A stretch of 22,500 bases of DNA from Chromera velia (lineage: Eukaryota > Sar > Chromeraceae): positions 1-22,500 of the forward strand of contig JAHBMJ010001812.1 in NCBI GenBank assembly GCA_018398765.1. Direction: 5' to 3'. Made by a program: the position numbers and the translations under genes. Shown piece by piece: positions 1,781-22,500 of this stretch. Position 1 is the first letter of the stretch, and each line of letters begins with the position of its first letter. Below the pieces are notes generated by a model. It was not told the DNA's origin and searched no databases. It saw only the letters and a program-made list of their open reading frames with translations.

Positions 1781-2465
1781 GGTGCGTATGTTTGGACAGC
1801 AGACTGCCCGGCAGTGAAGGCAGACCCCGGGATCTGCTTCGCGCTCTGTCTGGTGAAGGGGCCAGGGACAAAGCCAGAAACCCTCAGACTACAGCAGGCG
1901 TCTCCCTACGCAGAGGGCGAGTTTGATGTTCCAAAGGCGAAGTGTCTGAACGTCAACGAAGATGCAGACGTAGCCGAAGTGAGTGACTGAGTGAGTGAGT
2001 GAGTCTGTTTCTGACATTGAATAAAGTTGCAGAAGTGAAGTGAAAACAAAAGGAAAATGGAGAAGAGAAGTGCAGAGAGGAAAAAGGAAGAGATGCATTT
2101 TTAAAAGGACCAGAAAGGAACAGGGGAAGCGACGGGGCGAGGGTTGAGGGGAGGAAACTATTGAAAAGATGGAGGAAGAAGAAGAAGAAGGAGAAGGAGG
2201 AGACGGAGAAGGAGAAGGAGTGGAAGGGGAAGGAGTGAAAGGGGAACGAGAAGGAGAAGAAGGGGAAGGGGGAGGGGAAGGGGAGGGGGAAAAGAAGGGG
2301 GAGGGGAAATCAAAAGAAGCCGTAGAGATGAAGAGAAAGAAGCAAAACCAGGGAGATGGAAGGTGTTTGCGAGCAGCAAATAGGCCATAAAGGGAGGCTT
2401 AGAGTAATTCGGGGGCAACCAGGCTGAAGTTCCAGACTCATTATCCAGCGTCTCTTTCTCTCGCG

Positions 2466-2510
<45 letters not shown>

Positions 2511-3436
2511 CTCTGATTCAGGCCCACGAGCTCTCAGACCTTGTCCACACAAACGAGCCAGCGATTCTGGACAACCTCCGGAAGAGATACGAACGTTCTC
2601 AGATCTACGTCAGTCAGTCAGTCAGTCAGTTAGGCAGGCAGTCTTCCAGCTGCAGACAAATAGGGAAGGGCTGACTCCTTCTTCGTACTTTTGCTTTCGT
2701 CTAGGATGGAGCAAAAGCAACATCCACCTTGCTCCCTCCGCATCTGTCTTGTACTCAAGTTCAAGTATATTTTGTTTGGGTGCGCGTTCTTCCTTCGAGG
2801 TCGCGCATGTGTTTGTTTTTGCGTGTCTATGCATTTCTTTGCGTCTTCTCGATGAAGTGCCCGGGTGCCAGATTTCTTTCTTGCTGGCTGTTCTCTGCAG
2901 ACGTTCGCTGACCCTCTGTTGATTGCCATCAATCCATTCAAGGTCCGTCTCTGCCCGTGTCTCCCTTTTCAAGAGAGAAAGACATGACTTCATACACGAG
3001 GAACGCTCTCTCCATCCTTTTGGTCGCCTCTTTGTTTTGTTTCGTCATCTCTTCTGTGGCTGTCTCTGTGCGTTGACCTGATTTAAACTGTCCGCCCACA
3101 GCTTCTCTCCTCATTCCCATGACAAAGACCCACTTCTATGGTGAACCTATGAATTGGGGCATGCAAGACGATCGATTCACTAAACAAACAAAGAGTCACT
3201 CACTCCCACGCGAGAGAGCCTGGCTGCCTGCAGGACCTGAAAAACGCGACCCCTGAGACTGTGCGTCAGTACAGGAAGGCCGCCCTCTCAGCGGATGATG
3301 ACAACAAGAGCTTAGCCGGTCTGTCTGCTGGTCTCTTTCGCTCTCGCTCTCTCATATACACGTCCCCCGCGCATTGTTTTTCCAGAGCTTCTTGCCCCTT
3401 TTCCTCTTTCTGCATCAGCAGATACGTGGAGCGTGC

Positions 3437-3488
<52 letters not shown>

Positions 3489-3495
3489 TGTGTGT

Positions 3496-3534
<39 letters not shown>

Positions 3535-5620
3535 TCTGTCTGTCTGTTTACGTGTGTGAACATAGCTATGTGTGTTATAGCACGCGTCCGCGCGTGCATA
3601 CGTCTACGTATGTTGTGTAGGCGGATGATTGGTTGCATCTAGTGAGAGCTCCAGTCTCATTGTGTTTGATCATGCCCGCTTTGCGCTTCTTCCGGCTTCC
3701 TTCTCTTCGCCTTCCTATGTTCTCACAAGACGCAATTACTCATATTTCGTCGTTTGAATCGGATTTTGACACTACAAAGCGAATGAAAAATTGTGCAATC
3801 ATGAGGATGACCACCATGGACCCCAGAGTGTTCCTCTCCTGCACTCCTGTCCCTCCCTCCCTCCCTCCCTCCCTCACTCCCTGCAGGTGGAAGCCTCCAC
3901 GAAGACAAACTGCCCCCTCACGTTTTCACAATCGCGGCAGCAGCACAGGACCAACTGAACAGGTGCGGTGTGCTTCTGCATGTAGTTGGACGATTGGTTG
4001 TTCTTGTTGAGAAGCACTGGAGAGGTCAGACGGTTTCCTCACTGTTTTCCTGTCTCTGTTCTGCCATTCGTTCGTTTTACTCATTCTGACTCGCCGTCTT
4101 TCCCTCTTTCTGTCCTCGTCATGCTTTCTTTTCACCCAGCTGTACTGCCATTCTCTATTTTTTTCTTTCTTCTATCTCTTCCCTCCAGAACGAAACTGTC
4201 ACAATCGATTGTCGTCTCTGGGGAGTCGGGAGCTGGGAAGACAGAGACCGCCAAGCTGGTGATGAGGTACTACGCAAGCACGGCTCTTGCAAGGCAAATG
4301 TCCCGCAGTGGGCAGGCAGGACCGGGGAGGCGACGGGAGTCAGAGAGAGACAGGGACAGACTGGCGGCAGTCCGACGGCAGACAAACGCACTGGGACCCT
4401 CCGCTTGGGATCCTGCTGCAGACGCGGAAGTGGACACGGAACAGTGGGCCAAGGTAGGTGGGTAGGTGTGTGAATTCCTTCCTGAGTATCATTCATTTTT
4501 TGCTTGAGTATGTGATGTCAGTCAGACAGGGCTCGAAGGGCCTCAAAGTCGTGAAAAGAAAGAAAGAAGCAGCAGCTCGGGTGTCGCTTGCACGCATGAA
4601 TTCGTTCTGAAAGGTCTAGTCTGTTTTTTCCCTTTCGATTGCTATCTTGGTTATCACCAGGAGGTTGCACTGATGCAAAAGCGATTGCCTGTTTGTCTTC
4701 CCCTGTGTATCAGAACGAATGTAAAGACACAAAAATGGAAAGACACAAAACGGGGCATAATCACACTTTGCTTTTCTTCCTTTCTTCGTATCTCCTTGCA
4801 GGTCCCCAACAACAGGGTGCAGAACGCCGTGATGGCAGCGAACCCGGTGCTGGAGGCGTTTGGGAATGCCAAGACGGCGAGGAACGACAACAGCTCTAGG
4901 TTCGGGAGGTTCATGAGACTGATGGTTGCAGAGAGGGGAGGCATTCTGGGGGGATCCATGGAGAATTATCTCCTGGAGCGATCCAGAGTCGTCAGACAGG
5001 TGAGGGAGCGTCTGTTCTCTCCGTGCTTGTCGGTTAGAGACAGTGCAGGATTAAAAGGCAATGATTCCCTCCCTGCATCACTCTGCACCAGGTAGAGCTC
5101 CAGACGGACGAATAGGGAATGTCTGTGCATGCACAGATACAGAAACGCACACAAGAATATATTAAGAGGAGAGGAGCAGGTCGAATTTCAAGTGTAAAAT
5201 TGGCAGTTCATTCAAGAAGTGTCAAGGGGGGCCTTTTTTCTTCCTGCAAGAAGTTCGTTGGCTTTCGCTTGCAGACAGATACATTTCCTGTCGTCACCAA
5301 AAGCAAGACGTGTGTTTGTTGTATTGCTCGCTCATCGCTCTATGTGCAGACAAAGGGCGAAAGGACCTATCACGTGTTCTACCAGTTTGTCTCGGGAGCC
5401 TCGGCCAAGCAACGCGAAAGATACGAAATAGGGGATCTGAAGTCCTACAAGCTGCTCAGCCAGTCGGACTGCCAGAAGATTGAGGGAGTGGTCAGTAGGG
5501 AAATAGAAAAAACTCTCCCTCTCTCTCTCTCTCACACACACACACACAGACAGACACACACACACAGTCATACAGACACACACACAGTCATACACAGACA
5601 GAAACACACACATACACACG

Positions 5621-5658
<38 letters not shown>

Positions 5659-8600
5659 AACAAACTCACGCGCGCGCGCATGCAGCCACAGGTAGATGGG
5701 TTGGGTAGGGAGTGCTCGGTTCGAGAAAGAGGCGTCAGTGTGGGAGGAAGGGACTAGCTTTCAACGGCAGCCTGAGCACGTCAGAAACAGTTCCCCCAGA
5801 GCGGGCGTGATGATTCTTCCGTTCCCCATGCTTTTCAGTCATTTGATCCGAACGTAACCAGTCGACTTGCTGGAAATGTCCCCCCAAGTATTTCCGGTCA
5901 ATTTGCCAACTTATCTCCTTCAGGCATGCATCTGCCTTTTACGTACTGAAGAACAACAGCATCCGAAAGGAAAGAAAAACACCCTCACATACGTTCATCG
6001 ACTGCTGCCCCCTCTGCCTATTCATACACATGACGCTTTGCAAGCGTGCAGGACGACTCTGCGGAGTTCTCTCGGGTCCTCTCGGCTTTTGGGGAGATGG
6101 GCCTCCAGGAGGATGAGGTCGACAGCGTCTTGAAAGTCCTCGCAGGTCTGTGGGCGGGCAGAGAGAGGGAAACAAGGAGGGGTAGAATACAAGCAGGTTT
6201 GTGTCTGTGCTCTGCCAACTTTCATCAAGTGCGCTGGACATCTTCTCTGTTTCTTTTTTGCTGTCTTTGGTCTTGCCTGCAGCAATCCTACACGCTTCCA
6301 ATGTAGAGTTTCTGGCTGATGACTCTGGAGAGACCGACAGTGCGGCGTATCTTGACGGGGCCGGGATGGAACGTTTTGCGTTGGTGTCCTCCCTTCTCGG
6401 GGTCCACCCTGACGTCCTCTACCTAGGTCTGACACAAAAGAAGACGCAGATCCGCACCTCTGTGATCTATGGGAGGTACAAAAAGGACGAGGCACAGGTG
6501 AGAAGGGTGGGCGTTTGAAGCATTGAGAAGCCACTTGGGAAGTTATTTGCATTCGGTATGTCAGAGAACTTCGACTGAAAGAAAGCACTTGTGGACGCTA
6601 CGTAGCTCCACTGCATTCGATCAACAGCTGGTGTATACACGTAAGAACCATGTACTTTTTTTGTTGGACGATGAGTGCAAGAGGAAAGTTCCAATCTGGA
6701 TCTTTTTGGTGGGCATGAAAACGATTTAGGCCTTTCGGAATGGGACGATTTCTCTTCTGACATACAGCGAATACACAGAAGTCTACGAACCTCTCCCAGG
6801 GCTCTTCTGTAAAGTTTTTGTTTTTATCGTTCTTGTTTTGCATGATCTTGCGAAGGGTTAGGCAACGAGTGGTTCTCCTTGATTATGGGATCCATTCTCA
6901 CAGAGACGACATGCTGGATACAATTGTAAGTAACGAAATCCGGTTATCTCGTATGAGCTCTGCAGGTCCTTCTGGAGTCGCTGTTAAAGTCTGCATACGA
7001 CTGCCTCTTCTCCTGGCTCGTTGCGAGGCTGAACGTTTTGATTGAGCCAAGGGAGTGGGGGCCCTTCATTGGTCTGTCTAGCTAGTGATTCTATCCATCC
7101 TTTGGGGATATGCCTGACTCCTTCCTCTTTTTTTGTGCGCTCACGAATGTGCTTGCTTGCGGCCTGTGTGCCGTCTTCTGACTGCCAAAGCACTTCCATT
7201 TTTCTCTTTTCGGTATGTTTTGTGATGGTGCGAAACGCTACTGATTTCGGAAGGCTTTCGCCTGTCTCTATGCATCGCATATGCCTTTGTTTTCTTTTCC
7301 CGTGATCATGTTTTCAGGTGTTCTCGACATCTTTGGCTTTGAGTACTTCGCTGTGAACTCGTTGGAACAACTTTTGATCAACGTTACCAACGAGAGACTC
7401 CAGCACCTGTTCATCCAGATTGTCTTCGAACGGGTCCGTCAGTCAGTCAGTCAGTCAGTCAGTCAGGCAGTCAGTCAGTCAGTCAGTCAGTCAGTCAGTC
7501 AGTCAGTTAGTGATTCTGTCAGTCAGGCAGGCAGGCAGTCAGGCAGTCAGGCAGTCAGGCAGTCAGGCAGTCAGGCAGTCAGGCAGGCAGTCAGGCAGTC
7601 AGGCAGTCAGGCAGTCAGGCAGTCAGGCAGTCAGGCAGTCAGGCAGTCAGGCAGTCAGTCAGTCAGTCAGTCAGGCAGTCGGTTTGCATTGTTGTTTCTT
7701 CTATTCAGAGCCTCTCGTTGAGTCTCGCCTGCCTGCCCCTTGAGAGATCACGAAGGTGACCCAGAGAAAGAAAGCGCAGGTAAATGAGAAGATGACTCGA
7801 TGGACAAATCCACTCTACTTTTGCCGAAGAACACAGGAAGAGAAAGCGGGAAAAAGAGAAAGGGGAAGAAAGTGCCGGCTGCGACAAGAGAAAAAGAGTG
7901 GGACCTCCGCGCACGGAGCTTCTGATTTGTTTGTGTCTGTGTCTCTACACTCTGAACTCTTCTGTGTGCCTTCAGCAGGATATTCTGATTTACAATTTGT
8001 GAGACCCTTGGTTGCATGCCATTTGATTCTTTGCCGTGCTTCTCCTGTTCACCTTCTTTCTTCTCTTTCCACCTTTGAACGTCCTCCGCTCTCTCTGAGC
8101 TTCAATCTTCCTTTCTCTTCCCCTCTACTTGCAGGAGAAGACTCTCTACGAGAGAGAGCAGGTGGACGCTTCGTCTGTTGAGTTCAAGGACAACCAGCCA
8201 GTGATCGAACTCCTCACTGCTCCCGCAGCCAGAGGCAGGGCAGCAGGCGTGCTCGTCCTGCTAGAGGACCAGTGCAAAGCCCCAAAGGGCAGCGACCAGG
8301 TCTGTTGGGCTGGCCTTCTTCCCGTGATCATCTTCTGCATCTGCATCAAGCTTCGTCTGAATGATAGAGAGAAATGGACACAGGCCCAAACAGCCTTCTC
8401 TGTTGTTCTATCTTACTATCTTTGCTCTTCCACTCGCTCCCTGAGCGTTCTTCGTCTCTTTTTCGGTTTCGTCTTCTCTCTTTTTCTCTTTGTGCGCGCG
8501 AGTTTGTAAGGGAGATAGAGAGTCTGCGTTTCTCTTTCGCGTGAGCCCACGATGAAATTTGAGTTTGCACTTCTTCAGGGTTGGGTCTCCTCCATCCACA

Positions 8601-11600
8601 CCCACCTGAGCTCGCACCCGAACTACGAGAGGCCCCGGCAGGCCGTTACCAGTCACTTCACTGTCAAGCACACATCGGCAGACGTCACGTACAGGGGCGA
8701 CGGTTGTCTGGAGAAGAACCGGGACTTCCTCAAGGACGAACTGGAGGGCATCATGAGGGTTCGTTCGTTCGTTTGTTTGGCCATCTGTCCAACTCCGTCT
8801 TTCTCTGTTTGCCTGTCTGTCTTTCTGGCTGTCTGTCTGTCCGTGTGTGTGTCCGTCCATCTGTCTGTCTCTCTAGCTGTCTCTCTGTCTGCTTGTGTGC
8901 AGCAAGTTAGGAAGAATGACACAGGCGAGAGAGAAAAAGAGAGCAGAAAGTCGTGTCAACTGCATAATTTGGCAGATGAAATGACGAGAGCAGGTAGAAT
9001 GACGAACAGAGCAACAAATTGTTGAGAAAAGCAAACAAAAGATGTCGTGCACTGTTTTCTCAACCTCTTGTGCAGAATTCAGAGGACGAGACCATTCGGC
9101 AGCTCTTCGCCGAGTCCACACCGCCTCAAAGCGTCCAACAGCAGAATGCCCCACTCTCCGCCAGTGGTGCCCCTCAGAAGGCTCCAGCCAAGTTCATCAC
9201 CTCCCAGTTCGTTTCCGCTCTCGATAACCTTTTGGCGACCCTGAGCAACACAGGTTGCCACTTTGTCAGGTGCATGAAGCCAAACGACCAAAAGAAACAC
9301 GGCATTTTCGACAACATGAAGGTGCTCTCCCAGCTCCATTCCCTCAGCATCATCGAAGCTCTCCATCTGAAACACATTGGGTTCCAGTACAGGTGTGTGG
9401 GCAGTGGGCAGGGCTGCGACATATGTGCTACTTTCTTTCTTTCTTTCGATGCATGCATGTCATGTGCTTAATTCTCAAATGGAAGGAAGCACATGCATGA
9501 ATCATCTCGGGCACGGCTTTCCTTTCGGAAGATGAAACGGAACACTACAGATGGCCTCTTTGGACATCTTCTTTCTTCATTTGGTCGTCTGTGTGGTTAT
9601 GTTCTTCGTTGTTTGCACGTATTGCCCCGTCTTTACCGTATGCTGTGTCTTTTGTCTATTTGCTCTCCTGAATTCGCCATTCATTCATCCCTTCCTCGTC
9701 CTTTCTTTCCTTCAGGAAAACCTTTGCGGAGTTCGCGGACGAGTTCCGGCTGTTGATGCCTGAAATCGCGGACACCGAAAGAGACCCGTCAGTTTCCTTT
9801 TCTTCTTAATTCTGACGTCACGGAAGCAAACGGCTCTTTCCTTTCTCTCACACACATGCAGATCCACAGGAAGGAGCCCATGCAGGGTCCCATTCCAAGT
9901 GGTCAGACAACAGAGCATCAAAATGATGCGTAAATTTCTACCTGTAACTTCTTCGCCACCCTGTGTTCAGATCGAAAAACTTATATATTTACTCAAATTC
10001 TTAGTCACTGACATAGCAAGGAAAAGCCGAAGAAGAGAACATGCAGTCACAAATTGAGGTAGCCGACAAGAAAGAGGAGAAGGATAACTGCACGTCAATC
10101 TCTGCCTGCCTCTCCACAGGGTTTGATCAGAGCAATGTGTTCCCCTCTTTTCTGCATGTGTTCACTGCAGGCGGGCACTGACAATGGCGGTCACTGACAG
10201 ATACCTTGCGAGAGAGGACTGGCAGGTTCGTGGCCCTTCTTGTGTTCGTCTGTATGCGCGTTGACCTTCCTTTCTTGTGGATATTCTTCGTACCTCTCTC
10301 CAGCTCTCTGTCTTTCACCTCTATTTGTAAAATAGTTGTTCTCCTGCCTGTATGCATCTCGCCTGCGTGCGTGCATGATGTCAGTGGAGAAATCAATCAT
10401 TCAAGAAAAACAAAACGCGTAGGAGGATTGAGGGGAGAAGACTCACCTGAAGGGTTACCATGAGACAGACGCCTTTGCATGTATTTGTTTGTCCGTTTGC
10501 ATGCAGGAAGGCCGCTCGATGATTTTCATAAAGAGGCTGGGCAAGCGGAAGCTGGACAACTTGAAGAGCGACAAACTCCAGATGCTTCGACCTCTGTGCC
10601 AAAGGGTACAGGCAGCAGTGCGCATGCAGATGGCCCGACGGGAGCTCTCGTCCCTCCAGAGTCGCATCATCTCTATTCAGGCATGCAGTCGGAGGTCAGA
10701 AGAGAAAACGAAAAAGAAGAAATCATTTTGGAGGGGAAAATCCGGATGAATGGAGCAATCACGTTGGATCGGCAAATTGGACGAGAAACGCAAAGCGAGA
10801 AGGAGAGTCAACTGTGGATGACTTCCGATTCATTCGCAAAGATTTGTCGAGAAAAGATAGAGGAAAGTCAGATCCCTCCTGAGACCCTGATTGTCTTACA
10901 GTCTGCTTTCAAAAGAGACACATGTCCCCTGGAGCCTCTCCTTGTTCTTTAGCTTCGGTGTGGGTGTGCATGCATGCAAGCTTGCAGGTACTCTGTTCTT
11001 CAGCACTCGTTGAAGCTCCGAGCGATGAAACGGAACCTTGTGGGAGCCGCATTCCTCGTCAACGCAGGTGGGCCCATCAGTCCTCTCATGTCACATGAAG
11101 AGCTGTGCGTACAAGACTTAAACTCTAACCCTCAATTCGAAACAGTCGTTGCTCAAGCCTTCGCTTCCAGTAGTGATTCTCTCATCTTTTCCTGGGCCTC
11201 TACAGATACCTTCCTTAAGTCTTTCAGACATTTCAAGCTCTCTGTCTTCGTTCTTTTCTTCCCCATACATTCTTCCCCAGTTCCTGCAATACTTTGTGTC
11301 CTTCGCTTTTCTTCACCAACTCACCCAGTAGTGACTTTCCTCCGTCTTTCTCTCTTGCCTTCTCTTTATCTCGGACTGACCGCGTGCAGGGCGACGTCGT
11401 CTGATCGCTCTGAGAGCCTCCGTTGTCCTCCAGACGGCCTTCAGGGTCCTCTCTGCACAGCGAGAACTGGGCACTCTTAAGAGGCTGAAGAAGGAAGAGG
11501 AGACGGCAGTTCTCATTCAGGTGGGCTGGGTGGGGAAGGGCAGGAAGAGTTGGAAGAGAGAGGCACAGAGAGATTTGGCAGAAAGGAGGATGTTGCATCT

Positions 11601-13523
11601 TCCGGCCGATTTTTTTCTTTTGTCTGGGCTATTCGAACAGCGGATAAGAAACAGGAGAGAGGTAGACAAGCAATTTGTGAATCTTTTCTTCCTTTACATG
11701 TCCGCATTGCTCCGTTTCTACCTTTTTGCGTTTTCTCTCTTCTTTTCCACAAATAGTGGTTTCGAAAGAAGATGAAGGAGGGATTACTCTCTTGATCCCG
11801 GTCGAAGGAGAGACTTTGCGTACAGTTGTGAGGAAGGGGCTCGATTAACGAGCCCGGGGAAGTGGAAAAGAATGTGTGTGGTGCAATCCGCATCTGCTCT
11901 TTTGAAGAACAGTCTCCCAAACATAAATATAAAATTTGCAGGCTTGGGTGCGCGGTTGTATTTCCCGCACACACCACCGGAACATCTGTCGGCTCCGACG
12001 TCTGATCACAATTTACAAATCTAGATTGGCCTGGCAACAGAGGATCGCAAAGAAGTGTGCAATCAGAATGAGAGAGTTCCTGGAGACAAGAAGGAAGAGG
12101 GAACAGTACAGACTGATGGAGGCACTCAAGGTAGGTCATTTCGACTGGTATTTCGAACCTTCTTCTGTTCATAAAATTGTCAGGTGCGCATGCTTCGCTC
12201 TCTCGTATCCCCTTCTCTGCGTTGCTAAGTTTCTGTAAGCCTGATTGGTTGCTGGAGTGTGTACATGTATCCAGTCTATCCATGTTCCTGAGACCTCCCA
12301 TCCTCTCCCGTTGTATTTCTTCCTCCCATTTTTTCTCCAACTCGTGTCTGTTTGACTGCTCTGGTTGTCTCTTCGCCCCTCCCTCCTCTCATGATGCCCT
12401 CTTTGCAGGGCCGTCGGAACCACGTGAAGGCTTTCGAGGCCTCTCAGGTGCCTCTTCAGTCCGCAATCAGAACCTTTCTCGCCAGGCAGCGCTACCTGCT
12501 CACCCACTCGGAAGAGCTCCCGCCTGCGCTTGCTGCCCGGCCAGGAACAGGAATCAACAGCAGAGGGGAAGACAGCAAGGGAAAGAAGAAGAAGGAAAGT
12601 TTGGAGGAGGAGGCACGCAAGGAGAAGGAGCGGATGCGAAGAAGAAGGGAGCGCGAGAGAGAAAGAGCGAAAGACAGTACATGGCAGTACACTCCCCCCT
12701 CACGAGAACCTTCAGCTCTCGTTGGACAAAATTATGTCAGGTAGGTCACAAAACAAAAAGAATATCCACCGGGAGTCACTGGGCTCAAGCCCTTGTCAGA
12801 TAGATCAGAAAAGGAAGCAACGTGTCCCCTCGTTTCTTCCTTCCTCTCTTTGTGCTTTCAAAATGAAACAGCAAAACGGATGCAAGAGACCTCGAAAAAC
12901 AAAACGTGATGGAATGCTCGCAAAATTGATGGGAGACTGGTATTCTCTCGGAAGAGTCGTTTCTTCTTCATCCATCGTTTCCATCCCCCGTCCGTGATTT
13001 TCACCGATTTTCTTCTGTGCTGCTTCGTTCTCCCTTTCTTTCTTGCAGACGGCTAATTCTTTGTGCAATACGGATCCAGAGCCTTGCTCGTGGATGGCTC
13101 GTGCGTCGCCGTTTCACAAAGAAACGCAAGACCCTGATTCCAAGAGATTCGGCCTACTACATTCACGCAGCAGGGCAGCCGACTTCTGCCTTCCAGAGAC
13201 AGAAGGAAAGGGATGAACAGGCTGCTCTCGCGCAGTCGAAACTTCGGAAGTCCAGATTCCTCAAGAGGTACACTGCAGAGTACGGCACACAGAGTGGAGT
13301 TTCTGCATCTCATGAAGGTGGGAGGTCGACAGCTAGTCGGACAAGTCGGAAGTCCGTCGGGGGGAAGAAGAAGGGGGCCTTGTTGGACTTTCGGGATCTG
13401 TACGACTCTTCGTACACTGCGAGGACGTACAGCAGTCCTGTGCGGAAGTCTTTGACGCAGTCTGGAGGCTCTCTCAGGAGATCTCAGCTGGCCAATTCGC
13501 ACCAGGTCATGGGAAGGCACTGA
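1781..13523 (+). CDS. Unconventional myosin heavy chain, class XIV-like head with a long IQ-motif neck (23 exons resolved)
   Basis: Actin-based ATPase motor. Exons read by eye: 1781-1978, 2522-2608, 2901-2942, 3234-3318, 3887-3962, 4189-4453, 4802-4999, 5350-5490, 6052-6145, 6283-6497, 6966-7071, 7318-7433, 8135-8299, 8579-8758, 9076-9392, 9716-9787, 10171-10225, 10507-10694, 10988-11067, 11390-11520, 11942-12130, 12409-12740, 13049-13523 (TGA). All introns are GT-AG, and the joined exons (3807 nt) keep one open frame. Residues counted from the first certain exon: P-loop GESGAGKT 174-181, switch I NDNSSRFG 279-286, switch II DIFGFE 506-511, SH1-helix region 740-756, converter to about 814, IQ neck about 838-1131, basic tail to 1268. 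The N-terminal segment (GAYVWTAD...) and the [14 protein letters not shown] helix, which has Ser/Ala where most myosins have Gly, resemble apicomplexan class XIV. No FERM, MyTH4, WD40 or RCC1 domain is visible in the tail. The true start is unresolved: either an upstream exon or the in-frame ATG at 1646. Class assignment is inference. Confidence 0.93.
1979..2521 (+). repeat. Myosin intron 1: donor-linked (GTGA)n, purine tract and (TG)20
   Basis: The intron opens with the donor GTGAGT, which continues as an imperfect (GTGA)n repeat to about 2006. From about 2166 to 2335 the plus strand is almost pure purine (GGA/GAA/GGGGA units, about 170 bp). At 2469-2508 there are 20 uninterrupted TG units, ending 13 bases before the acceptor AG (2520-2521) where a polypyrimidine tract would be expected. 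The Glu-rich, Leu-rich and Val-Cys open frames in this stretch are repeat artefacts. Confidence 0.9.
2609..2900 (+). repeat. Myosin intron 2 opening with (GTCA)n
   Basis: The donor GTCAGT directly begins a (GTCA) tetranucleotide run (2609-2632) that decays into GGCA units by about 2643. The rest of the 292-bp intron is pyrimidine-rich and ends CTCTGCAG. No coding potential seen. Confidence 0.9.
3441..3543 (+). repeat. Composite microsatellite (TC)15-(TG)n-(AG)n-(TGTC)n in myosin intron 4
   Basis: Inside intron 4 (3319-3886), a TC run (3441-3470) is followed by a TG run (to about 3495), then a GA run (about 3502-3532), then TGTC units. The TC and GA runs are complementary, so the transcript could fold into a stem of up to about 30 bp around the UG-rich centre. 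The intron itself opens GTCTGTCTG and closes with (CCCT)n (3851-3874) before its acceptor CTGCAG. Confidence 0.9.
4189..4453 (+). other. Myosin exon with P-loop and an unusual charged insertion
   Basis: This exon encodes the Walker A P-loop (GESGAGKT) and the following helix ending MRYYAS. It then continues for about 58 further residues (about 194-251), rich in Arg, Ser, Asp and Gly, before the next exon resumes the conserved head at [15 protein letters not shown]. In most myosins this position (loop 1, between the P-loop helix and the conserved Q-N-A-I/V-M-A-A-N-P segment) is short. Loop 1 is known to affect ADP release, so the insertion may tune kinetics; that is inference. The frame is open throughout and the splice phases on both sides fit, so it is probably real coding sequence and not retained intron. 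A shorter alternative donor inside the exon cannot be excluded. Confidence 0.8.
5517..5656 (+). repeat. (CT)n/(CA)n microsatellite in myosin intron 8
   Basis: Intron 8 (5491-6051) opens GTCAGTAG and soon becomes a short CT run followed by about 120 bp of CA repeats interrupted by CAGA, CATA and CACG units. It accounts for the Thr/His-rich frames in this stretch. The rest of the intron shows nothing recognisable. Confidence 0.9.
7434..7681 (+). repeat. Long (GTCA)n/(GTCAGGCA)n array at the 5' end of myosin intron 12
   Basis: Immediately after the exon ending ...FER, the intron begins GTCCGTCAGTCA and continues for about 245 bp as GTCA units. The first part is mostly (GTCA)n; from about 7521 to 7655 it is mostly a GTCAGGCA octamer, then GTCA again. 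Intron 12 (7434-8134, 701 bp) is the longest in the gene. Its remainder is ordinary pyrimidine-rich sequence ending CTTGCAG. The array is open in some frames (Ser-Val-Ser-Gln and Arg-Gln-Ser-Gly translations), but this is repeat artefact; the conserved head resumes at 8135. Confidence 0.92.
8759..8892 (+). repeat. Myosin intron 14: (GTTC)n donor repeat grading into (GTCT)n
   Basis: After the exon ending ...GIMR the donor GTTCGT is repeated three to four times and grades into GTTT, then into imperfect GTCT/GTCC units up to about 8892. A TGTGCAG follows at 8896-8902 and could act as a cryptic acceptor, but the acceptor that keeps the head frame is TGTGCAG ending at 9075. Confidence 0.85.
10507..13208 (+). 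other. IQ-motif neck (light-chain-binding lever arm) of the myosin
   Basis: After the converter ([10 protein letters not shown]) the protein runs into a series of IQ motifs, the helical sites that bind calmodulin-like light chains. Good matches to IQxxxRxxxxR start at residues 838 (VQAAVR), 936 (IQAWVRG), 1016 (LQSAIR) and 1120 (IQSLARG). Weaker ones start at 861 (IQACSRR) and 907 (LQTAFR), and there is a degenerate one near 885. Spacing of the first few is 22-24 residues, as for tandem IQs. Residues about 1058-1088 are a Lys/Glu/Arg-rich run likely to form a charged single helix. Introns cut inside IQ units (for example between IQ and AWVRG at 11520/11942). The long neck differs from the short necks of most apicomplexan class XIV gliding motors. 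Confidence 0.8.
13209..13523 (+). other. Short basic, Ser/Arg-rich C-terminal tail of the myosin
   Basis: The last exon leaves the final IQ motif and codes for a tail rich in Ser, Arg, Lys and Gly (repeated RTSRKS-like and GGKKKG patches), then Tyr/Ser-rich segments, ending at TGA 13521-13523. No known cargo-binding domain is visible. A basic tail of this kind could bind membrane lipids or a partner; that is inference. A possible AATAAA-like sequence (ATAATAAA) lies shortly downstream at about 13567-13575. Confidence 0.6.
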
Positions 13524-14421
13524 CAAAGGGACAAGCACTGACGCTGGGCTTACAATGTTCTACGTAGATAATAAACACAAGTATAGCCCTTGAAAGACCT
13601 ATTCTAGGACCCATTTTTAGAACTAAACCGCCATAACCACCGTGATTGAGAAAGACTGCTCTAGAGGACCTAGTAGTAGAGGTCGGCTCACTAGCTTACA
13701 GGCAGTTTTAACCACGACAATCAATAAGTAAATCAATATAAAGACTGAGTTTGAAAAATATATTAGTAATTTAATGATGCTCAGTTGCTTGTGAATACAA
13801 ATGAAACATGCATATGAAGTGCGTTGGCTTTAAAAATGACTCAAAAGTATAAAATAATTGTTTCTACTTGGGTTTCTACACTAGCTTTTACAATAATAAA
13901 GACTATCTGCCTAGCCATTTACCTATAGATATGGCCTAAATAATAGGCTATTAAATTGTCCCCAAAACTTGTAATAGTGATCTTTTTTATCTGTGAATAC
14001 AAATGAAACATGCATATGAAGTGCGTTGGCTTTAAAAATGACTCAAAAGTATAAAACAATTGTTTCTACCTAGGTTTCTACACTAGCTTTTCTAATAATA
14101 AAGACTATCTGTTGAGCTATTTGCCTATAGATATAGCCTAAATAATAGGTTACTAAATTGTCCCCAAAACTTGTAATAGTGATCTTGTAGTATATTTGAT
14201 TTACAAGCTTATTTCATCCTAGATTTCATCCAAAATTTCATCTAATATTTTATTCACTCTGCCAGACTATAATGAGAACGAATAAGAAAATCTGAAGAAA
14301 AAAAAACTTTTGAATTTTTATTAACTGATGGATAACTCGGAAAGGTTTCTACTAAAACTTGCAGAGAGCCGGGGAGTCGGGGACTTGTTTGTATGTATAA
14401 TCAGCATATTTAGAAATATCA
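13524..14421. other. AT-rich non-coding island downstream of the myosin gene
   Basis: After the stop codon, composition changes sharply to AT-rich sequence with TATA/AATAAT runs and no coding potential in either strand. It includes the probable myosin 3' UTR at its start and a tandem duplication (13791-14192). It ends at the edge of the left LTR; similar AT-rich sequence resumes on the far side of the retrotransposon at 21146, suggesting that the element landed inside a single AT-rich stretch. Confidence 0.75.
13791..14192. repeat. Tandem duplication, period 202 bp
   Basis: The sequence beginning GTGAATACAAATGAAACATG at 13791 recurs at 13993 with few substitutions over about 195 bp (both copies end near CTTGTAATAGTGATCTT, at 13984 and 14186). 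The offset is constant at 202 bp. The copies hold no open frame. They could be two units of a satellite or the internal part of an unidentified AT-rich element. Confidence 0.9.
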
Positions 14422-14426
14422 TAGGG

Positions 14427-15064
14427 CAAGAAGTTCAGTAGTTAGGCAACAGATGCTATCAGAGACTAGGAAGCTAGCTGTTGAGCGACTGAAGATCAAG
14501 AATCGATAGAGACTAGAAGAAGACAGAAGTCCGAAGTCTCAAAGAAGGAATAGAAACTGAATGACAAGAGCTAGGGGTTGCTCTTGAATCGAGATCAACA
14601 TGAAGAGAACACGAGCAACACGTTTGATTGAGCAATCGAATGACTTATGTGCTGCGCTATGCATGACGGAATGACAAGACCCCGGAAAGTGCCCTTGCAT
14701 GGGGCCAGATTGAAATGTCTGTGTGCTATGGATAGTCGACTTTGGTCTGAAAAGGGAGAAAGACACGTCAAGAGTAAAGAGGGCAAACCCAAGCAACACT
14801 TGGATACGTGAAGCAACACTTGACGCCAAAATTAATTCACGTGCGTACACATGGATCCGGTTGGGCCACATGAAACAGAGCACTGATCGCAGTAAATGCA
14901 TGCGCGGGAAGAAAAAGAGGAGCCGCCAAACCGAACGAGAAAAATTGGCGTGCAGTCGGCACCGGACATAAAACGCAGTCAACACGGCGCACCAAGCACT
15001 GAAAATGTATGGATGGACGCCGATAAGAAGAAAGAAAGGTCAGGCAACCTGAGAGAATATTATG
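14427..15064 (-). repeat. 3' LTR of the copia element (left copy)
   Basis: Direct repeat of 20508-21145, 638 bp, aligned without a net gap, with about 34 mismatches by hand count (about 95 % identity). The outer edge is flanked by TAGGG at 14422-14426. The ends are not the usual TG...CA. Confidence 0.92.
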
Positions 15065-15080
15065 GGGCTTTCTCTTCTTG
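15065..15080 (-). other. Probable polypurine tract
   Basis: On the minus strand the bases just upstream of the 3' LTR are a purine run (AAGAAGAGAAAG) followed by CCCC. This is the expected place and composition for the plus-strand primer of an LTR retrotransposon. Confidence 0.55.
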
Positions 15081-15116
15081 TAGCGGTAGTGAAAGGAGCA
15101 AAAAGAGAGAAATCAT

Positions 15117-16321
15117 TCACTCACGAAGGATAAGAGGAGGGAGAGAAGAAACGATCTTGGCACCAAAGATAAGAGATGCCACAGGAGACTTGCGCATGCG
15201 ACGAGTCAGAGGTCCGAGGTCCAGGGCCTTCATAAAAATATCAGAGATGTTCATCTCAGTGGGAACCTTGAAAACACCGACGCGATGGTCATCGGCAAGG
15301 TCGGTGGCGGCAAGAACAGGGACAACACACGCGCGGTCCTTCAACTCCTTCACGAGAGGGAGGAGCGCTCTCTCTGCAGAAGACGGAGCGCCAGAGAGCA
15401 GAAGAAAGAGAACGTTTGTGGCGTCACAGCCAATGCCGATGCGGATAGACTTGTAGAACGGCTGCATGCATGCAGCGAAGTAAATGGCGGCATCTAAAAC
15501 ATCCTCCAAAGCCAGAAACTCTGCGCGAGTTGTGGAACGAGCCACGCGCGGTTGTCGGCAGTTCTTGTGTATCAGAGGGAAGCCATTGATGAACAGAATT
15601 CAAGCCGACTGGGGGTGGGGGGACGCAGCGTTGCCGAAGGAGGCGTCTCCATGCACAATGCCTGTGAGCTCGTCAGGGGAATCAGAAGCATGGATATGGA
15701 TGCCGAGGGAGGGGTTGGTACGCAAGTACCTGAGAGTCTGGAGAAGGAGTCGGAATGCGCGCTCGGTGGGGGCTGCCATGAATTTAGAGAGGTAGAAGTG
15801 TGCTAAGGCCACGTCCGGTCGAGTACAATTGGCGACATACCCAACCTGACCAAGCAGAGTGCGAAAAAGAGAGGCCCCCCTGCTGTCAAGCGGGGGGGGC
15901 ACGTCATCCTCATACATGGATCCGACTGGCAAAGGCTTGTTGGCGGGCTTGAAGGAGGAACCGATATGCTCAGGAGAGAGAGAAAGCGAGGAGATGTAGT
16001 CGGTCTGATGAACACCCCATCGGTTATAACCTCAAACTGGACGCCAACGAATCGCCCCTCAGTAAGCTCAGTGTAATCGCCACAGGTGATGAAGTCTTTC
16101 AGCGGGTCGACGAGGGAAGCGGCATCCTCTCCGATACCCAGAATGAGGAGATCATCAACGTAGGTCGCAACGATGCCGCGGAGCTCGCCATCTTTGTCGC
16201 AAAGGAACCAAACACTAGGAAAGAGACCAGTAGTCCATCCAAGCTCCGTTAGCTTGGAGGCGAAAAAATCTTCAAAGACCCGACCGGCATCGGGAAGGCC
16301 GTAAACAGCCTTCTGGAGGAC
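15117..16321 (-). pseudogene. copia pol, 3' part: reverse transcriptase C-terminal half and RNase H (broken)
   Basis: Continues the pol frame after the TAG at 16322-16324. RT signatures are KAVYGLPDAGR and the catalytic YVDD at 16151-16162. The frame shifts by one near the CCCC at 16015-16018, after which the copia-typical segment around LLGQVGYVANCTRPDVALAH follows. RNase H begins with HGDASFG, is interrupted by TGA at 15600-15602, and goes on in the same frame with ARSTTRAEFLAL, CDATNV and the terminal EMNISDIFMKAL before its stop at about 15117. Order and motifs fit copia; the product is not intact. Confidence 0.9.
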
Positions 16322-18445
16322 CTACAAGTACTGCCCATCGTTGGGGTGATCGGAGGGGGAGATGGCAGCCAGAGCGGGACAATCTGCTGGAAGCGGGGCT
16401 TGGAGATATGCTTGTACGATGTCCGCTTTCTGAAGTGACAAAGGCACTCCCCGACGCTTGCAAGCGTCCAGGGCAAGCTGGAGGACACACTGGACAGCGT
16501 CGGGAGGGCAGAGGTGAGTGGTGACAACGAGGTCGTCTCTCGAAACCCTGTTGCCGAGAATGACGGTGCAGGTCTTGAAGCTACGAGAGCTATCATCCTT
16601 CAGCTTGGAGATGCGTACACGCATGAGAGGCATATGAGGGACATCGGCAGGCACTTCTGAAATGATGCGTCTCTGATACACTTCGCGAGTCAACCAGCCT
16701 TCATCCTCTTTGCGGTCAGCAAAACATACGAGCTCTTTCTTGGAATTAGAAAGATGTTTCAGGCTGACTGGCTGATGAGTGGTGGCTGCACAAACGGACG
16801 TCTCAACAGAAAAGAGGAAAGCCATGGCAGATGCAACGGCAGGGTCACGCTCAAACGCACCAGGGTACTGCCCAAACGAATAACCTTGCACACCAGAAGA
16901 GAGAGTAGAACAAACGGAAGAAGGGAGACGGAAGCCCCGACCACCTCCGCAAGAGTCCATCTCAAAACCAGAAGTGACCACCTTATCGTGCAAGAGCTCC
17001 ACCAACTCCGCCTCTCTCTTCTTCACTCGAGTGTCGTAGGTGACGTAAGCACCGCCAGAGCTGTAGTAACCTGGAGCCCACTGCCGACGGGACAACACAC
17101 AATGCTGGTATGTCCCCCAGGCGTGCACCTCGTACTTGATAGTGTCTAAATCACGAGGGCCTGGAAGAACACGGCGAATTTCTCCCACCCATAGAAGGCC
17201 GGCTTTGGGAGACCGACCAACAATCATCATGCTGGGCTCTAGAGGACCAGGCGGCATAGACAAAGGGGAAGAGGAAGGAGAGAAAGGGTTCTCGGTACCC
17301 GAACAAGATGAAGAAGACGAGAAGACAGGCACCGATGCACTCAAATCGATAACACCAGCCACAGAAGAGCTAGGGGGAGTAGGTGAGGGCATGGTAGCAG
17401 AAGTCATCTCCGCAGGGGGAGGAACCGCAGCTGGACGAAGCTGATAGGGGCTGGCGGTGGTGTTCTGGGGGATGAAGGAGGGGTCAGTGGCTTCAATTTC
17501 GTAGAAGTGGGCGTTCTCAGCTCGAACAACACGGTAAGGATACCAAACGGGGCCACACTTATGCTCCTGTCTACAGCGGCCTCCGCTGCCAGAGGTACCG
17601 ACGTTGTATATCACAGTCTCTCCGACCGAATAGGTATGGAGAGAAGAAGGAGGAGGAGGGCGGTCGGCTGACAAGAACTGTCGAAGGCAGGGAAGCGCAG
17701 GAGGGAGGGAAGCTTCATCATGACGATTCAAAGCGCCTCGCATAGACATGCGGTTGGTGAGGCATCTGACAGCTTCATCGACAACAGTGGGCCACTGAAA
17801 GGGGGAGAGACCTTGCTTAAGCAAACTGGAACGGACAGATGCCAGGACGTCTCGATGCCATCTCTCGACGATGCTGTTGCCGTCTTTGTAGCCGGAAGGA
17901 GAGAAAGTGAGACGGATGCCGTGTTTCTCACAGAACTCAATGAGGGGAGCACCTGCAAACTCGGAGCTTTGGTCGCACCGAATCTCCTGAAGAATGCCGA
18001 AACGAGGCACCCAAACAGTCTTGAGGAAGGTCACGACCTCATGGGACTTGGGGTGGCCGTGGTAGCGACAGATCCAGCCAAAGTTGTGGCAGTCCTCCAC
18101 AACCGAAAGTTGGTAAGTGTGCCCAGAGTCCGAGGAGCCCCAAAACTGACTGTCCAGATGAAGACGTGCCCCGACGTGCCCGCCACGAGTGAAAAAAACA
18201 CCGGGGATTGAGAATCCCACAGGGCCTTTCACCTGGGGGCACATGAGACAGGCAGAAAGAACCACCGCCACGAACGAACGCAACCAACAGAGAGGAAAGT
18301 CGACAAAAAAGTAATGCAGCAGCTGAGCCACCACTTCTCTCAAACCTCTATATCCACAGTCACAGTGTATCAAATTCACAAGACGATAAAGCTCGGCAGG
18401 AGTGAAAGTAATACAATGCTTCGTTTGCTTGAAAGTCAATTTCTA
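16322..18445 (-). pseudogene. copia pol, middle: integrase and start of reverse transcriptase (open, but bounded by stops)
   Basis: The longest open frame of the element (about 705 codons from 18439). A GAG-pre-integrase zinc-binding remnant (IHCDCG...CLMC) lies at residues 25-68; the second expected His is not in place. The integrase core has Asp96 (LHLD), Asp156 (RCDQSSEF) and Glu192 (IVERWHRD), which gives the canonical D,D-35-E spacing. A long Pro/Ser-rich linker follows, then the RT N-terminus with QKADIVQAYLQAPL near residues 670-682, before TAG at 16322-16324. The frame is closed upstream by TAG at 18443-18445. The catalytic triad itself looks intact. Confidence 0.9.
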
Positions 18446-18474
18446 CTCATACTGAAAAAGAGAGGAAGTGGTGG

Positions 18475-18517
18475 ATATCTCAGCAGCAGCCGCATNATAT
18501 CTCAGCAGCAGCCGCAT
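18475..18517. other. Assembly join: single N flanked by an identical 21-bp sequence on both sides
   Basis: The 21 bases at 18475-18495 are repeated exactly at 18497-18517, with one N (18496) between them. This is what results when two contigs that share an end are placed side by side without merging. One copy plus the N is 22 bp, which by itself shifts the reading frame; without it the protease frame (19010-18518) and the integrase frame (from 18445) fall in the same phase. Confidence 0.9.
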
Positions 18518-18879
18518 CAATCATTTCAGCTTTTTCTTCACAGAAATCAAAAGAAGCAGAAGGAGGAGGGGCAGGGGCAGCGGACTGTACATTCTCTCCC
18601 TCGATGCCGTCACCTGGTGGGGGGGGGGGAGGCAGACCGTCAGTCCGAGACATGAAGACGGTCGGGGGGTCACACCACAGATGATGATCGGCGTCGTCAT
18701 CGGACATGTCAGTGTCGGAGTCGCTCTCGACGAGGTTAGGGAGGGACTCCGTCTCCATAGTGTTACTATAGATCTTGAGCTGTTCCAGAGGAAGGCCGTA
18801 GTAGTGCCCGAGGTCAGTCCAGGGGAGGTGGATCTCGCTGGTGCCATCGTTCGAAAGAAGAGTCATGAGGTTGGTAGCG

Positions 18880-19269
18880 TAGTTCATGGAAGCCTCAAAA
18901 CACTGAGCAAGGGACTTGGAGAACAAGAACGGCACGCTCGACTGAGGAAGAACCAGGAAGGAGATGGTCTCAAGGCGGGAGACAAAGATGATGATCTCGA
19001 CGGTGATCATGCAGGAGGCCTACACAATCGCTTTGCCCTCGTCAGAAGACTCATGAGCGGTCTTCACGGCAATGGGAGGGTCCAAGATAGTCTCACTGTA
19101 CTTGATTTTGGACTGCACGGCTTCAGACCGGAGGTATAGTTCACCAACGGCATCGACCGTGGCGCCATCATCTTTGCCAAAGTGAGGGTCGTCGATCATC
19201 TGACCGGAGGACACGGCAGGGGTCGCGAGAGACACGGTGGCACATCGGACATTGGCAGCCTGCTGTGTA
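18880..19269 (-). pseudogene. copia aspartic protease region (broken)
   Basis: Downstream of the zinc knuckles in the same frame. A KDDGAT at about 19160 stands where copia proteases have the catalytic D-S-G-A/S motif, so the Ser is replaced by Asp. The segment PPIAVKT...ITVEIIIFVSRLE resembles the later protease strands, but TAG at 19020-19022 interrupts it. Assignment rests on position and weak motif similarity. The frame then continues as an acidic and Pro-rich linker up to the assembly join at 18496. Confidence 0.6.
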
Positions 19270-20443
19270 GCCTTCAACTTCTTGAGGCACATTGCAGGAA
19301 AGTGGCCTGTCTTGCCACACGCATACGTAATTAAGGCAGCAGGACAGGAGGAGCGATCATGAGGAGACCCTCCACAGTTAATGCACTTGGTATGCTTCCC
19401 CCACTTGTAGACGATTCCACAAAAGACACAGAGCTTGTCCTTGGGCTTCTCCTTCTCGCCATCCTTCTTCTTGGCAATGCCCTTGCCCTTTGATGACGCT
19501 GGAGTAGAAGAGGACTTGGAGGGCTGGGAGGCGAGTATGGTCGGGAGTGAAGAGAACCAAATGGATGCAGATGGGGCCTAAGCACCGTCTGCTCGTGCTT
19601 CCGCAAGCAGTTGAAGAGGCCGGTGGGGGTGAAGTCCATGTTGTTGGTGAGGACAAAACGCTTCGCTGACCCCTCTGCGGGCAGTGCTTCCAGCAAGATG
19701 GAGTACTCGAGGGGGAAGAAAGCAGGAGTACCGAAGGCGAGTGCAGGGACAAGACGCTGAAGAGCGCTAAGCACTTGGACAGCACGACCGAAGAAAGAGA
19801 TGACCATGTCCTTGGCAGTCGGACGGAGGTTCTTCACATCCTGCCAGCAGAGACGTACACGTTGCTTGTACGGATCGAGGTAGAGGGACTCAAGCTCCGT
19901 GAAGAGCCACTGAGGGTTTATTGAGTCCGTTATCCACAACGGCTTTGCCCTCAGGATGTCACGGACCTCTACTGTCACCTTGTTCCGGATGAGGATGGCC
20001 AAGTCAACCGGGCTGAAGGTGTCCGGACCATCAATCGCTTACACCTCCTGGGAGGCTGCAAGGACGTCTTGTTTCCATTTTTTGATATCCATACCAGTCT
20101 TGCCAGTGAAGACGGGGACCTGGGCAATCGCCTGCTTGGCCAGGTCGCTGCGTCGAAATGTAACCACAGAAGGCCTGGCAGGAGGGGGCATCGCTCCCGG
20201 CACCGGGGTGGTGTAGTTGGTGGGAACATCCTGAGGTCCTGGCCAGCCAAACGGAGACGGCGGTCCGTGCATGGTGTAAATAGGGACAGCCTGGGGGCCT
20301 GGACCACCAAATGGAGGCGGAGTGAGAGGAGGGTCTTGAGGAGGTTGTGCAGGAGGCGGAGGAGTCTCCTAAGCCGCGTGATGTCCAAAGGAAGGGGCAG
20401 GCGACTGGCCACCGTCCTGGTAAGTGACATCTTGAGTGTCCAT
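19270..20443 (-). pseudogene. copia gag with CCHC zinc knuckles (broken)
   Basis: Probable start ATG at 20443-20441, 64 bp inside the 5' LTR. A Pro/Gln/Gly-rich N-terminus carries TAG at 20369-20371. A capsid-like part follows (VFTGKTGMDIKKWKQDV, then TAA at 20039-20041, then LFTELESLYLDPYKQ...SFFGRAVQVLSAL), typical of copia gag (UBN2-like). A one-base shift somewhere in 19500-19580 moves to the frame of a Lys-rich linker and two zinc knuckles. The first, CINCGGSPHDRSSC, is a perfect CX2CX4HX4C. The second, TYACGKTGHFPAMC, has lost its first Cys. Confidence 0.88.
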
Positions 20444-20507
20444 CGGGTAGACACGTGGCCAAAGAGAAGGATCACTGTTCGACCCCGGGAGAAGAAAGCC
20501 GGCAGCA

Positions 20508-21145
20508 TAAGAAGTTCAGTAGCTAGACAACAGATGCTACCAGAGACTAGGAAGCTAGCTGTTGAGCGACTGAAGATCAAGAATCGATAGAGACTAGAAG
20601 AAGACAGAAGTCCAAAGTCTCAAAGAAGGAATAGAAACTGAATGACAAGAGCTAGGGGCTGCTCTTGAATCGAGATTAACATGAAGAGAACACGAGCAAC
20701 ACGTTTGATTGAGCAATCGAATGACTTGCGTGCTGTGCTATGCATGACGGAATGATAAGACCCCGAAAAGCGCCCTTACATGGGGCCAGATTGAAATGTC
20801 TATATGCCATGGATGGTCGACTTTGGTCTGAAAAGGGAGAAAGACACGTTAAGAGTAAAGAGGGCAAACCCAAGCCACACTTGGATATGTGAAGCAACAC
20901 TTAACGCCAAAATTAATTCACGTGCGTACGCATGGATCCGGTTGGGCCACATGAAACAGAGCACTGATCGCAGTAAATGCATGCGCGGGAAGAAAAAAAG
21001 GAGCCGCCAAACCGAACGAGAAAAATTAGCGCACAGTCGGCACCGGACACAAAACGCAGTCAACACGGCGCGCCAAGCACTAAAAATGCATGGATGGACG
21101 CCGATAGGAAGAAAGAAAGGTCAGGCAACCTGAGAGAACATTACG
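20508..21145 (-). repeat. 5' LTR of the copia element (right copy)
   Basis: Partner of the repeat at 14427-15064, also 638 bp. It lies upstream of gag and should carry the element's promoter; no TATA box is evident. TAGGG follows at 21146-21150, matching TAGGG on the other side of the element. Confidence 0.92.
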
Positions 21146-21700: not shown

Positions 21701-21952
21701 CTAGACGGTTTGGACTGTCTCGAGTGCCTCCGTCTCCTCTAATGCACTGAGGCCACCAGAGGTTTGCACCTTCTTTGCTTCGCTCCCCCCCGTTGTCAGT
21801 TCAGCCAGCAGGTGGTCCTCCAGCATATGGTAGAGCTGCAGGTTGGACGCTTGCGTCACGGGATCTGTAAGCGAGTGGTCTCTATCCGGATAGTAGAAGG
21901 ACTTGAACTGAACGTTCGCAGCCTCCAGCTCCTTGGCGAGAAGAGCTGAGTT
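21701..21952 (-). CDS. S9-family serine peptidase (prolyl oligopeptidase/dipeptidyl peptidase-like), last exon
   Basis: The reading starts after a TGTACAG acceptor (AG at 21953-21954) and runs 84 codons to TAG at 21701-21703. The protein begins NSALLAKELEAANVQFKSFY and continues through YPDRDHSLTDP to LYHMLEDHLLAEL. This matches the C-terminal end of the alpha/beta-hydrolase domain of S9 peptidases: the His of YPDRDHS is the expected catalytic His, and a closing helix follows. The exon boundary falls just after where the family has the H-G-T-x-D-D-N-V-H motif with the catalytic Asp, so that part must lie upstream, beyond the right edge. A Glu/Thr/Ser-rich tail of about 30 residues follows the domain. 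The frame passes a run of seven G (minus strand, 21785-21791), where one miscounted base would give a shorter C-terminus. Substrate is unknown; subfamily S9B/S9C cannot be decided. Confidence 0.8.
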   Translation of the reverse strand, partial: NSALLAKELEAANVQFKSFYYPDRDHSLTDPVTQASNLQLYHMLEDHLLAELTTGGSEAKKVQTSGGLSALEETEALETVQTV

Positions 21953-22500
21953 CTGTACAAAGAAACACGGACACGCACAGAATTCCGCAGGGAGAAAGGG
22001 GCTGAAAAATGCCTGGAAAATGCCATACCTAAAATGAAGGAAAAACCCAGAGATGCTGCCCAGGTCTACCAGAATCCAGGGAGATCAAGGAGAGATTTGT
22101 GGGATCTGAGGGCCATGGAAAGAGACGGATGAATGGTTCGTGTTAGCGAGCCCGGTAAAGGCTCAAGCATTTGATACTGTGTGCTCATGTGACTGTGGGG
22201 TTCTGGACTGATCGAGGCACAGCTCTCTTGTAGAGGTTCATGCGCACATGCAGGTACACAATCGTGCAATTTCGTTTTCAATACTCTCATGGACACGACG
22301 TATACGGAACAACAGAGAGGCAGAACGCAAGAGAAAAAACGAAGAAAAAAAACCTTGAAGGACGCACAGACACATGACGTAACTCCCCCGTCTCTCCTTC
22401 ACTTCACAGACAGACCCTTTGAGCCCGAATTTTTCAAACGGTGTCCGTCCGTGTGTCCGCCTTTCCGTCTATGTGTTTCTCTCTCTCTCTCTCTCTCTCT
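21953..22500 (-). other. Intron of the S9 gene, continuing past the window edge
   Basis: At least 548 bp. I looked for an upstream exon with S9 motifs (GxSxGG, HGTxDDN) on the minus strand and found none. The right edge (22481-22500) is a TC repeat on the plus strand (GA on the coding strand). Short open frames here show no recognisable domain. Confidence 0.6.

Follow-up and report, generated by a model that had tools for sequence, protein, structure and literature searches.

In proto-microsatellite theory, short accidental repeats act as seeds, slippage grows them into arrays and point mutation makes the arrays decay. The consensus of splice sites, for its part, is usually ascribed to the small nuclear RNA (snRNA) and protein partners of the spliceosome. 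The described systems closest to ours concern the splice donor. In human, the use of the second site in tandem 5' splice sites of the form GYNNGY (Delta-4 donors) has mostly been read as noise by the authors who describe it (PMC4267661). Two donor classes have been described (PMC11732430), and donor evolution has been linked to METTL16 and SNRNP27K (PMC10581693). Here, we analyse a stretch of 22,500 nucleotides from Chromera velia (assembly GCA_018398765.1, contig JAHBMJ010001812.1, positions 1 to 22,500 of the forward strand; hereafter the window) and, in particular, the splice donors of the myosin gene that it carries. These donors follow a GTNNGT consensus and at times run on as tetranucleotide repeats, an observation that we confirm with myosin and kinesin genes and with counts over the whole genome. 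We are moderately confident that such a donor is best read as a functional signal that doubles as a fixed microsatellite seed, at which slippage would add or remove units harmlessly.

The myosin gene (1781..13523, plus strand) was modelled by frame reading. Its 23 joined exons give an open frame of 1268 codons (amino acids, aa) with 0 internal stops; 22 introns were placed, and a 5' exon upstream of 1781 was not located. The product is identified as a myosin by Pfam (Myosin_head, 4e-190, plus an IQ motif), and the closest relatives with a solved structure belong to Myosin A (6due, 2e-163). Every intron has a GT donor and a CAG acceptor (22/22 for each). G stands at +5 in 22/22 donors and T at +6 in 16/22, the same counts as in an earlier, sequence-only reading of this stretch, and GT at +5 is found in 16/22. 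The base makeup is C10 G7 A3 T2 at +3 and A7 C5 G5 T5 at +4.

Because the claim cannot rest on one gene, the genome (177.8 Mb, 4040 contigs) was searched for further myosin and kinesin genes, which gave 37 myosin exon matches and 134 kinesin matches. The independent set consists of eight kinesin loci, with one single-exon kinesin motor as the reference, and of myosin stretches on seven other contigs. Introns were placed by a purpose-written protein-to-genome spliced aligner that uses homology, the donor GT, the three preceding exon bases and the acceptor, and is blind to the intron from +3 onward. GT and AG were required of introns outside the window, so their presence there is no test. The aligner proposed 82 introns outside the window. 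We kept the 48 for which masking the donor costs at least 14 score units and the acceptor is CAG or TAG; among the rest, one that passed the masking threshold was excluded because its acceptor is GAG, 16 (loss 4-14, CAG acceptor) were set apart and 17 were unused.

The independent introns show the same donor. Among the 48 that were kept, +5 is G in 45, +6 is T in 37, GT stands at +5 in 35 and GTRAGT occurs in only 4; the base makeup is C30 G8 A8 T2 at +3 and A24 C11 G7 T6 at +4. The 16 less certain introns have G at +5 in 12 cases, T at +6 in nine and C at +3 in seven. Removing four introns of locus L041 that match those of L040 leaves a non-redundant set of 66 (22 from the window and 44 from outside), which is used below unless another number is given. 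In this set, GTRAGT is found in 5/66 introns and C at +3 in 37/66. With the U2-type GT-AG spliceosomal class, the window introns share their GT and AG borders, and the genome shares the U1 5' end and the U6 ACAGAG (see below). The donors examined depart from the normal GTRAGT consensus of that class, as the sequence-only reading had anticipated. It had also described +3 and +4 as free, with +3 often C; the frequent C and the free +4 stand, but +3 is biased rather than free.

Both strands of the whole genome were also scanned for exact matches, and each pattern read backwards served as its control. The pattern with C at +3, CAGGTCAGT, occurs 2957 times against 1385 for its control, a count that may be raised by GTCA microsatellites. 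The corresponding figures are 1998 and 1530 with G at +3 (CAGGTGAGT), 771 and 2256 with A (CAGGTAAGT), and 470 and 857 with T (CAGGTTAGT). The ranking is C, G, A, T by raw count and C (2.1), G (1.3), T (0.55), A (0.34) by ratio to control; by either measure, C ranks first and A, the textbook base, scores low.

Repeats are concentrated at the donor. We defined an array as a perfect period-4 stretch of at least 12 nt within an intron. Eight of the 39 arrays start at +1..+6, where 0.75 would be expected (Poisson p 1e-6, about a tenfold excess), and five start exactly at +1 (0.13 expected), so the enrichment at +1 over other intron positions that had been suggested from the window holds. Taken alone, the 44 introns outside the window have 5/26 arrays beginning at +1..+6 against 0.55 expected; before duplicates were removed, the 48 outside introns held 29 arrays, seven of them starting there, and the window introns 13, with three such. 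No array among the 66 introns ends within 8 nt of the acceptor. In 5/8 array introns, the repeated unit is identical to +1..+4 of the donor; another of the eight, at position 2500 of L042, is not a GTNN array, its GTCAGG donor running on as (CAGG)n from +3. GTCA/GTCT arrays lie on the sense strand in 11 cases and on the antisense strand in 0. In addition, a third GT follows GTNNGT in 11/48 donors, above the GT density (p 0.0006).

Seven window donors had been singled out in the sequence-only reading as growing into repeats, and each of the seven positions is an exact donor. Four of them are true arrays. Intron 1 (1979..2521, donor GTGAGT) continues from +1 as (GTGA)n with one CTGA (Tandem Repeats Finder, TRF, 1978-2004), and intron 2 (2609..2900, GTCAGT) as (GTCA)5. 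In intron 12 (7434..8134, GTCCGT), a long (GTCA)n array runs from +5 to about 7680, and intron 14 (8759..9075, GTTCGT) has (GTTC)3(GTTT)2 from +1 and an interior TCTG array at 8804-8891. The claim holds less well for the other three. Intron 6 (4454..4801, GTAGGT) has GT each four bases in mixed units, and introns 4 (3319..3886) and 11 (7072..7317), both with donor GTCTGT, hold two perfect units only and so prove nothing by themselves.

Two other places with GTCA repeats were noted in the genome. A putative further array donor lies on the kinesin contig C46, where a pattern match at 108614-108632 on the minus strand has CAG directly before (GTCA)4; it adjoins kinesin exon matches at 108588-108758 and 108014-108199. 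On the 199 kb contig C994, where GTCA-class arrays are the commonest tetranucleotide arrays (30/119), a dense CAGT-type cluster with short breaks at about 180.8-182.4 kb (L037) holds 22 of these 30.

The four-base rhythm extends beyond the arrays themselves. Over +3..+12, the identity of bases four apart is 0.493 at donors and 0.357 in the intron interior, and that of bases eight apart 0.477 and 0.331; none of the six further lags examined puts donors above the interior (70 introns for all lags). In the 66 introns, the match to a GTCW template in donor phase is 0.498 at +7..+14, 0.407 at +15..+30 and 0.384 at +31..+46. Over +15..+46 together it is 0.395. Random phase gives 0.31-0.32 (p<1e-4 for +7..+14 and for +15..+46). 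The signal over +15..+46 is present in the 44 outside introns alone (p 0.0002) and in the 22 window introns (p 0.027). At +47..+78 it is at background level (p 0.23). A weaker signal is seen in the 54 introns that have neither an array nor a third GT (0.366 vs 0.324, p 0.012). We read this phase-locked rhythm, which reaches to about +46, as the trace of decayed arrays.

Paralogous introns give a view of the turnover of units. Our comparison covered donor regions, tetranucleotide arrays and five intron pairs of the near-duplicate myosin genes L040 and L041, which lie on contigs C1231 and C3136 (93% identity in one 311-base exon compared). The five pairs are the placed introns that the two genes share, and in two of them there is a four-base difference at the donor. 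The donor at aa 603 is GTCT x4 + GTCC in L040 and GTCT x5 + GTCC in L041, followed by identical sequence, which is a clean change of one unit. At aa 576, three GTCA units are present in both genes, and L041 carries four extra bases directly behind its units; the aligner makes these bases one GTCA unit, but we read them as a degenerate unit. Moreover, when C994 is compared with L039, the intron at aa 615 and that at aa 650 each carry an array in only one of the two genes, the aa 650 donor in C994 having a support of only 9.4.

These observations suggest the following mechanism. Introns would be marked by a relaxed donor, mostly NAG/GTNNGT with C favoured at +3. Recognition most likely proceeds via the exon AG, the GT at +1/+2, the G at +5 and the T at +6 through canonical U1 and U6, which would leave +3 and +4 able to drift. 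GTNNGT amounts to one and a half units of a tetranucleotide repeat, presumably held in place by purifying selection, and, being permanently maintained, it would act as a standing seed. Replication slippage could then gain or lose whole GTNN units just inside the intron, and such changes would be nearly neutral because each restores the exon/GTNNGT junction. Arrays would thus lengthen and shorten and be eroded by point mutation, and a rhythm that fades in donor phase to about +46 would be left behind. The order we infer is seed before array. Of the two options raised in the sequence-only reading, that the donor motif seeds slippage or that repeated donors are selected, seeding fits better, given the array units that repeat the donor's own bases (5/8) and the four-base differences between paralogs; selection of repeated donors did not emerge from the data.

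The snRNA partners, which had been suspected of pairing weakly with +3 and +4, turned out to be canonical at the pairing sites. For U1, the 5' end ACUUACCUGG is intact in 2/3 matches (L009, at 79 bits, and the weaker L010, both with ACTTACCTGG; L011 is without it). For U6, ACAGAG is present in 7/7 matches (L012-L018) and ACAGAGA in 6/7, L017 having T as the next base. The examined snRNA sites therefore account for neither the free +4 nor the C at +3, and the exon AG, +5 G and +6 T should still be able to pair with U1. As a cause, the loss of METTL16 or SNRNP27K is unsupported, since matches to both families are present: SNRNP27 at 87 bits, and PF05971 (METTL16 family) in two pieces of 39 and 33 bits. 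PF05971 also matches bacterial controls, so its match is no proof of METTL16.

The seeding mechanism itself leaves the C at +3 unexplained. Tentatively, GTCW slippage at donors, neutral for splicing, may have driven the genome-wide donor from GTRAGT towards GTCNGTC, in which case the C at +3, not a base preferred by canonical U1 and U6, would be an imprint of microsatellite drive and not of a changed spliceosome. We regard this extension as possible, although we lean against it.

Several results weigh against a seeding donor or against the data from which it is drawn. The third GT that follows GTNNGT in donors (11/48) is not in significant excess over intron-interior seeds (11/72, Fisher p 0.34); donor seeds that grow no more than interior ones favour seeding without special selection, in a comparison of little power. 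At +3 and +7, identity is found in 21/48 cases, about the 21 expected from column composition, so the echo of the donor may partly be an extended consensus and not copied units. The whole-genome counts of (GTCW)4 are ambiguous, with 643 after AG (reversed control 300) and 2325 after any of six non-repeat dinucleotides (control 1693). A hand count of the dinucleotides before (GTCW)4 at the 100 places listed gives TG 29, AG 23, GG 17, TC 15, GC 10 and AC 6. In the other three L040/L041 intron pairs, and in the rest of these introns, indels are of many lengths and some are large, so whole-unit change is not the sole change. The introns come from two gene families, myosin and kinesin, and donor placement rests on homology, frame and GT-AG. 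The aligner's weights for exon end and acceptor were trained on the window introns, so that the exon AG outside the window is partly so by construction. Finally, a purpose-written gene finder recovered most window donors and made noisy calls on the gene-poor contig C994, where G stands at +5 in 13/28 of the best introns; this counts against the consensus if the calls are correct, and these introns were not used.

Among the other explanations, an unlikely one is that repeated donors are selected because adjacent GTNNGT copies raise capture by U1 and U6 (avidity), chiefly where the coding sequence cannot give an AG exon end. AG ends the exon before the donor in 40/66 introns, but in only 2/8 array donors against 38/58 others (p 0.05), and arrays at two positions are common to L040 and L041. 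On the other hand, this link to weak exon ends is post hoc and falls to p 0.07 once 15 further introns of lower certainty are included; some array donors do follow an AG exon end (L040:3077 and L040:3552), and there are paralogous introns without arrays (aa 615). Copies four bases apart also endanger the frame, a worry of the sequence-only reading that proves right in principle. If the GT at +5 were used instead, a stop would be met, by computation, for all 16 window donors that have one. For one of them the stop would lie within the retained bases, and for the others 8 to 497 nt beyond these.

We also find it improbable that an extended consensus is all there is, with a spliceosome of this lineage preferring something like GTCAGTC and donor arrays mirroring a general abundance of GTCA/GTCT microsatellites. 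The 48 outside introns do echo the donor every four bases (+7 C 30, +9 G 28, +11 C 26), with C as frequent at +7 as at +3, and this explanation would also account for the near-compositional identity of these two positions and for the lead of GTCA-class arrays on C994, though most of the latter sit in one cluster. Yet the rhythm persists to +46, to our knowledge beyond the reach of any donor contact, arrays start at +1..+6 about ten times more often than expected, and GTGA and GTTC arrays that match their own donor also occur. That introns were born from or brought by repeat-bearing elements, the first unit giving the donor, has a precedent in the introner-type gain of the alveolate Amoebophrya (PMC7789003) and agrees with a rhythm carried by many introns, but it is very improbable given that shared paralog positions show array and non-array forms of one intron.

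The remaining introns of the window gene, all on the plus strand, are intron 3 (2943..3233, donor GTCCGT), intron 5 (3963..4188, GTGCGG), intron 7 (5000..5349, GTGAGG), intron 8 (5491..6051, GTCAGT), intron 9 (6146..6282, GTCTGT), intron 10 (6498..6965, GTGAGA), intron 13 (8300..8578, GTCTGT), intron 15 (9393..9715, GTGTGT), intron 16 (9788..10170, GTCAGT), intron 17 (10226..10506, GTTCGT), intron 18 (10695..10987, GTCAGA), introns 19 (11068..11389) and 20 (11521..11941), both GTGGGC, and introns 21 (12131..12408) and 22 (12741..13048), both GTAGGT. A small exon near 9860-9902 was considered and is ruled out by frame reading, as 9787 joined directly to 10171 stays open.

Directly 3' of the myosin gene, at 13790-14186, a 202-base unit stands in two tandem copies that are 93% alike. 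A Ty1/copia-like element, labelled by eye from the listed open reading frames (ORFs) only, occupies 14430-21140 on the minus strand; alike stretches near 14430-15060 and 20510-21140 bracket long minus-strand ORFs, and there is one N at 18496. The window also contains a second gene, for a chlorophyll-binding light-harvesting complex (LHC) protein (Pfam Chloroa_b-bind, 2e-34). At 21741-22500, the 3' end of a further gene lies on the minus strand. By eye, its last exon looks like a prolyl oligopeptidase or DPP-type C-terminus, and a 59-residue piece of it has no Pfam match.

Our searches of open-licence papers turned up no account of GTNNGT donors that expand into repeats, nor of such donors in chromerids, which leaves absence unproven; the sequence-only reading had known of none either. 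Like the GYNNGY donors of human, those of Chromera have two GT four bases apart, the second of which shifts the frame and mostly leads to a stop. GYNNGY donors are a subset in human (PMC4267661), whereas GTNNGT is the majority form in the introns examined here and has sometimes grown into an array. As in the system with two donor classes (PMC11732430), a strong exon AG may accompany weak +3/+4 positions; the present donors differ in having C as the commonest base at +3 together with strong +5 G and +6 T, and the pairing sites of U1 and U6 have the canonical sequence. The paper on METTL16 and SNRNP27K (PMC10581693) mentions neither Chromera nor apicomplexa. That system likewise has one donor position shifted species-wide, but here matches to both families are present and the odd position is +3.

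Here, then, the tested spliceosomal partners look ordinary whereas the base at +3 does not; a mutational process linked to the signal itself offers an alternative cause for the shape of a consensus. Such donors also provide a natural test bed for how a spliceosome settles on the first donor where several follow one another at four-base spacing. They would present a functional signal as a fixed microsatellite seed of known location and phase. With proto-microsatellite seeding they would share the short seed, growth by slippage and decay by point mutation; unlike the seeds of that theory, the seed here would be a conserved functional signal, unable to decay and fixed in place and phase.

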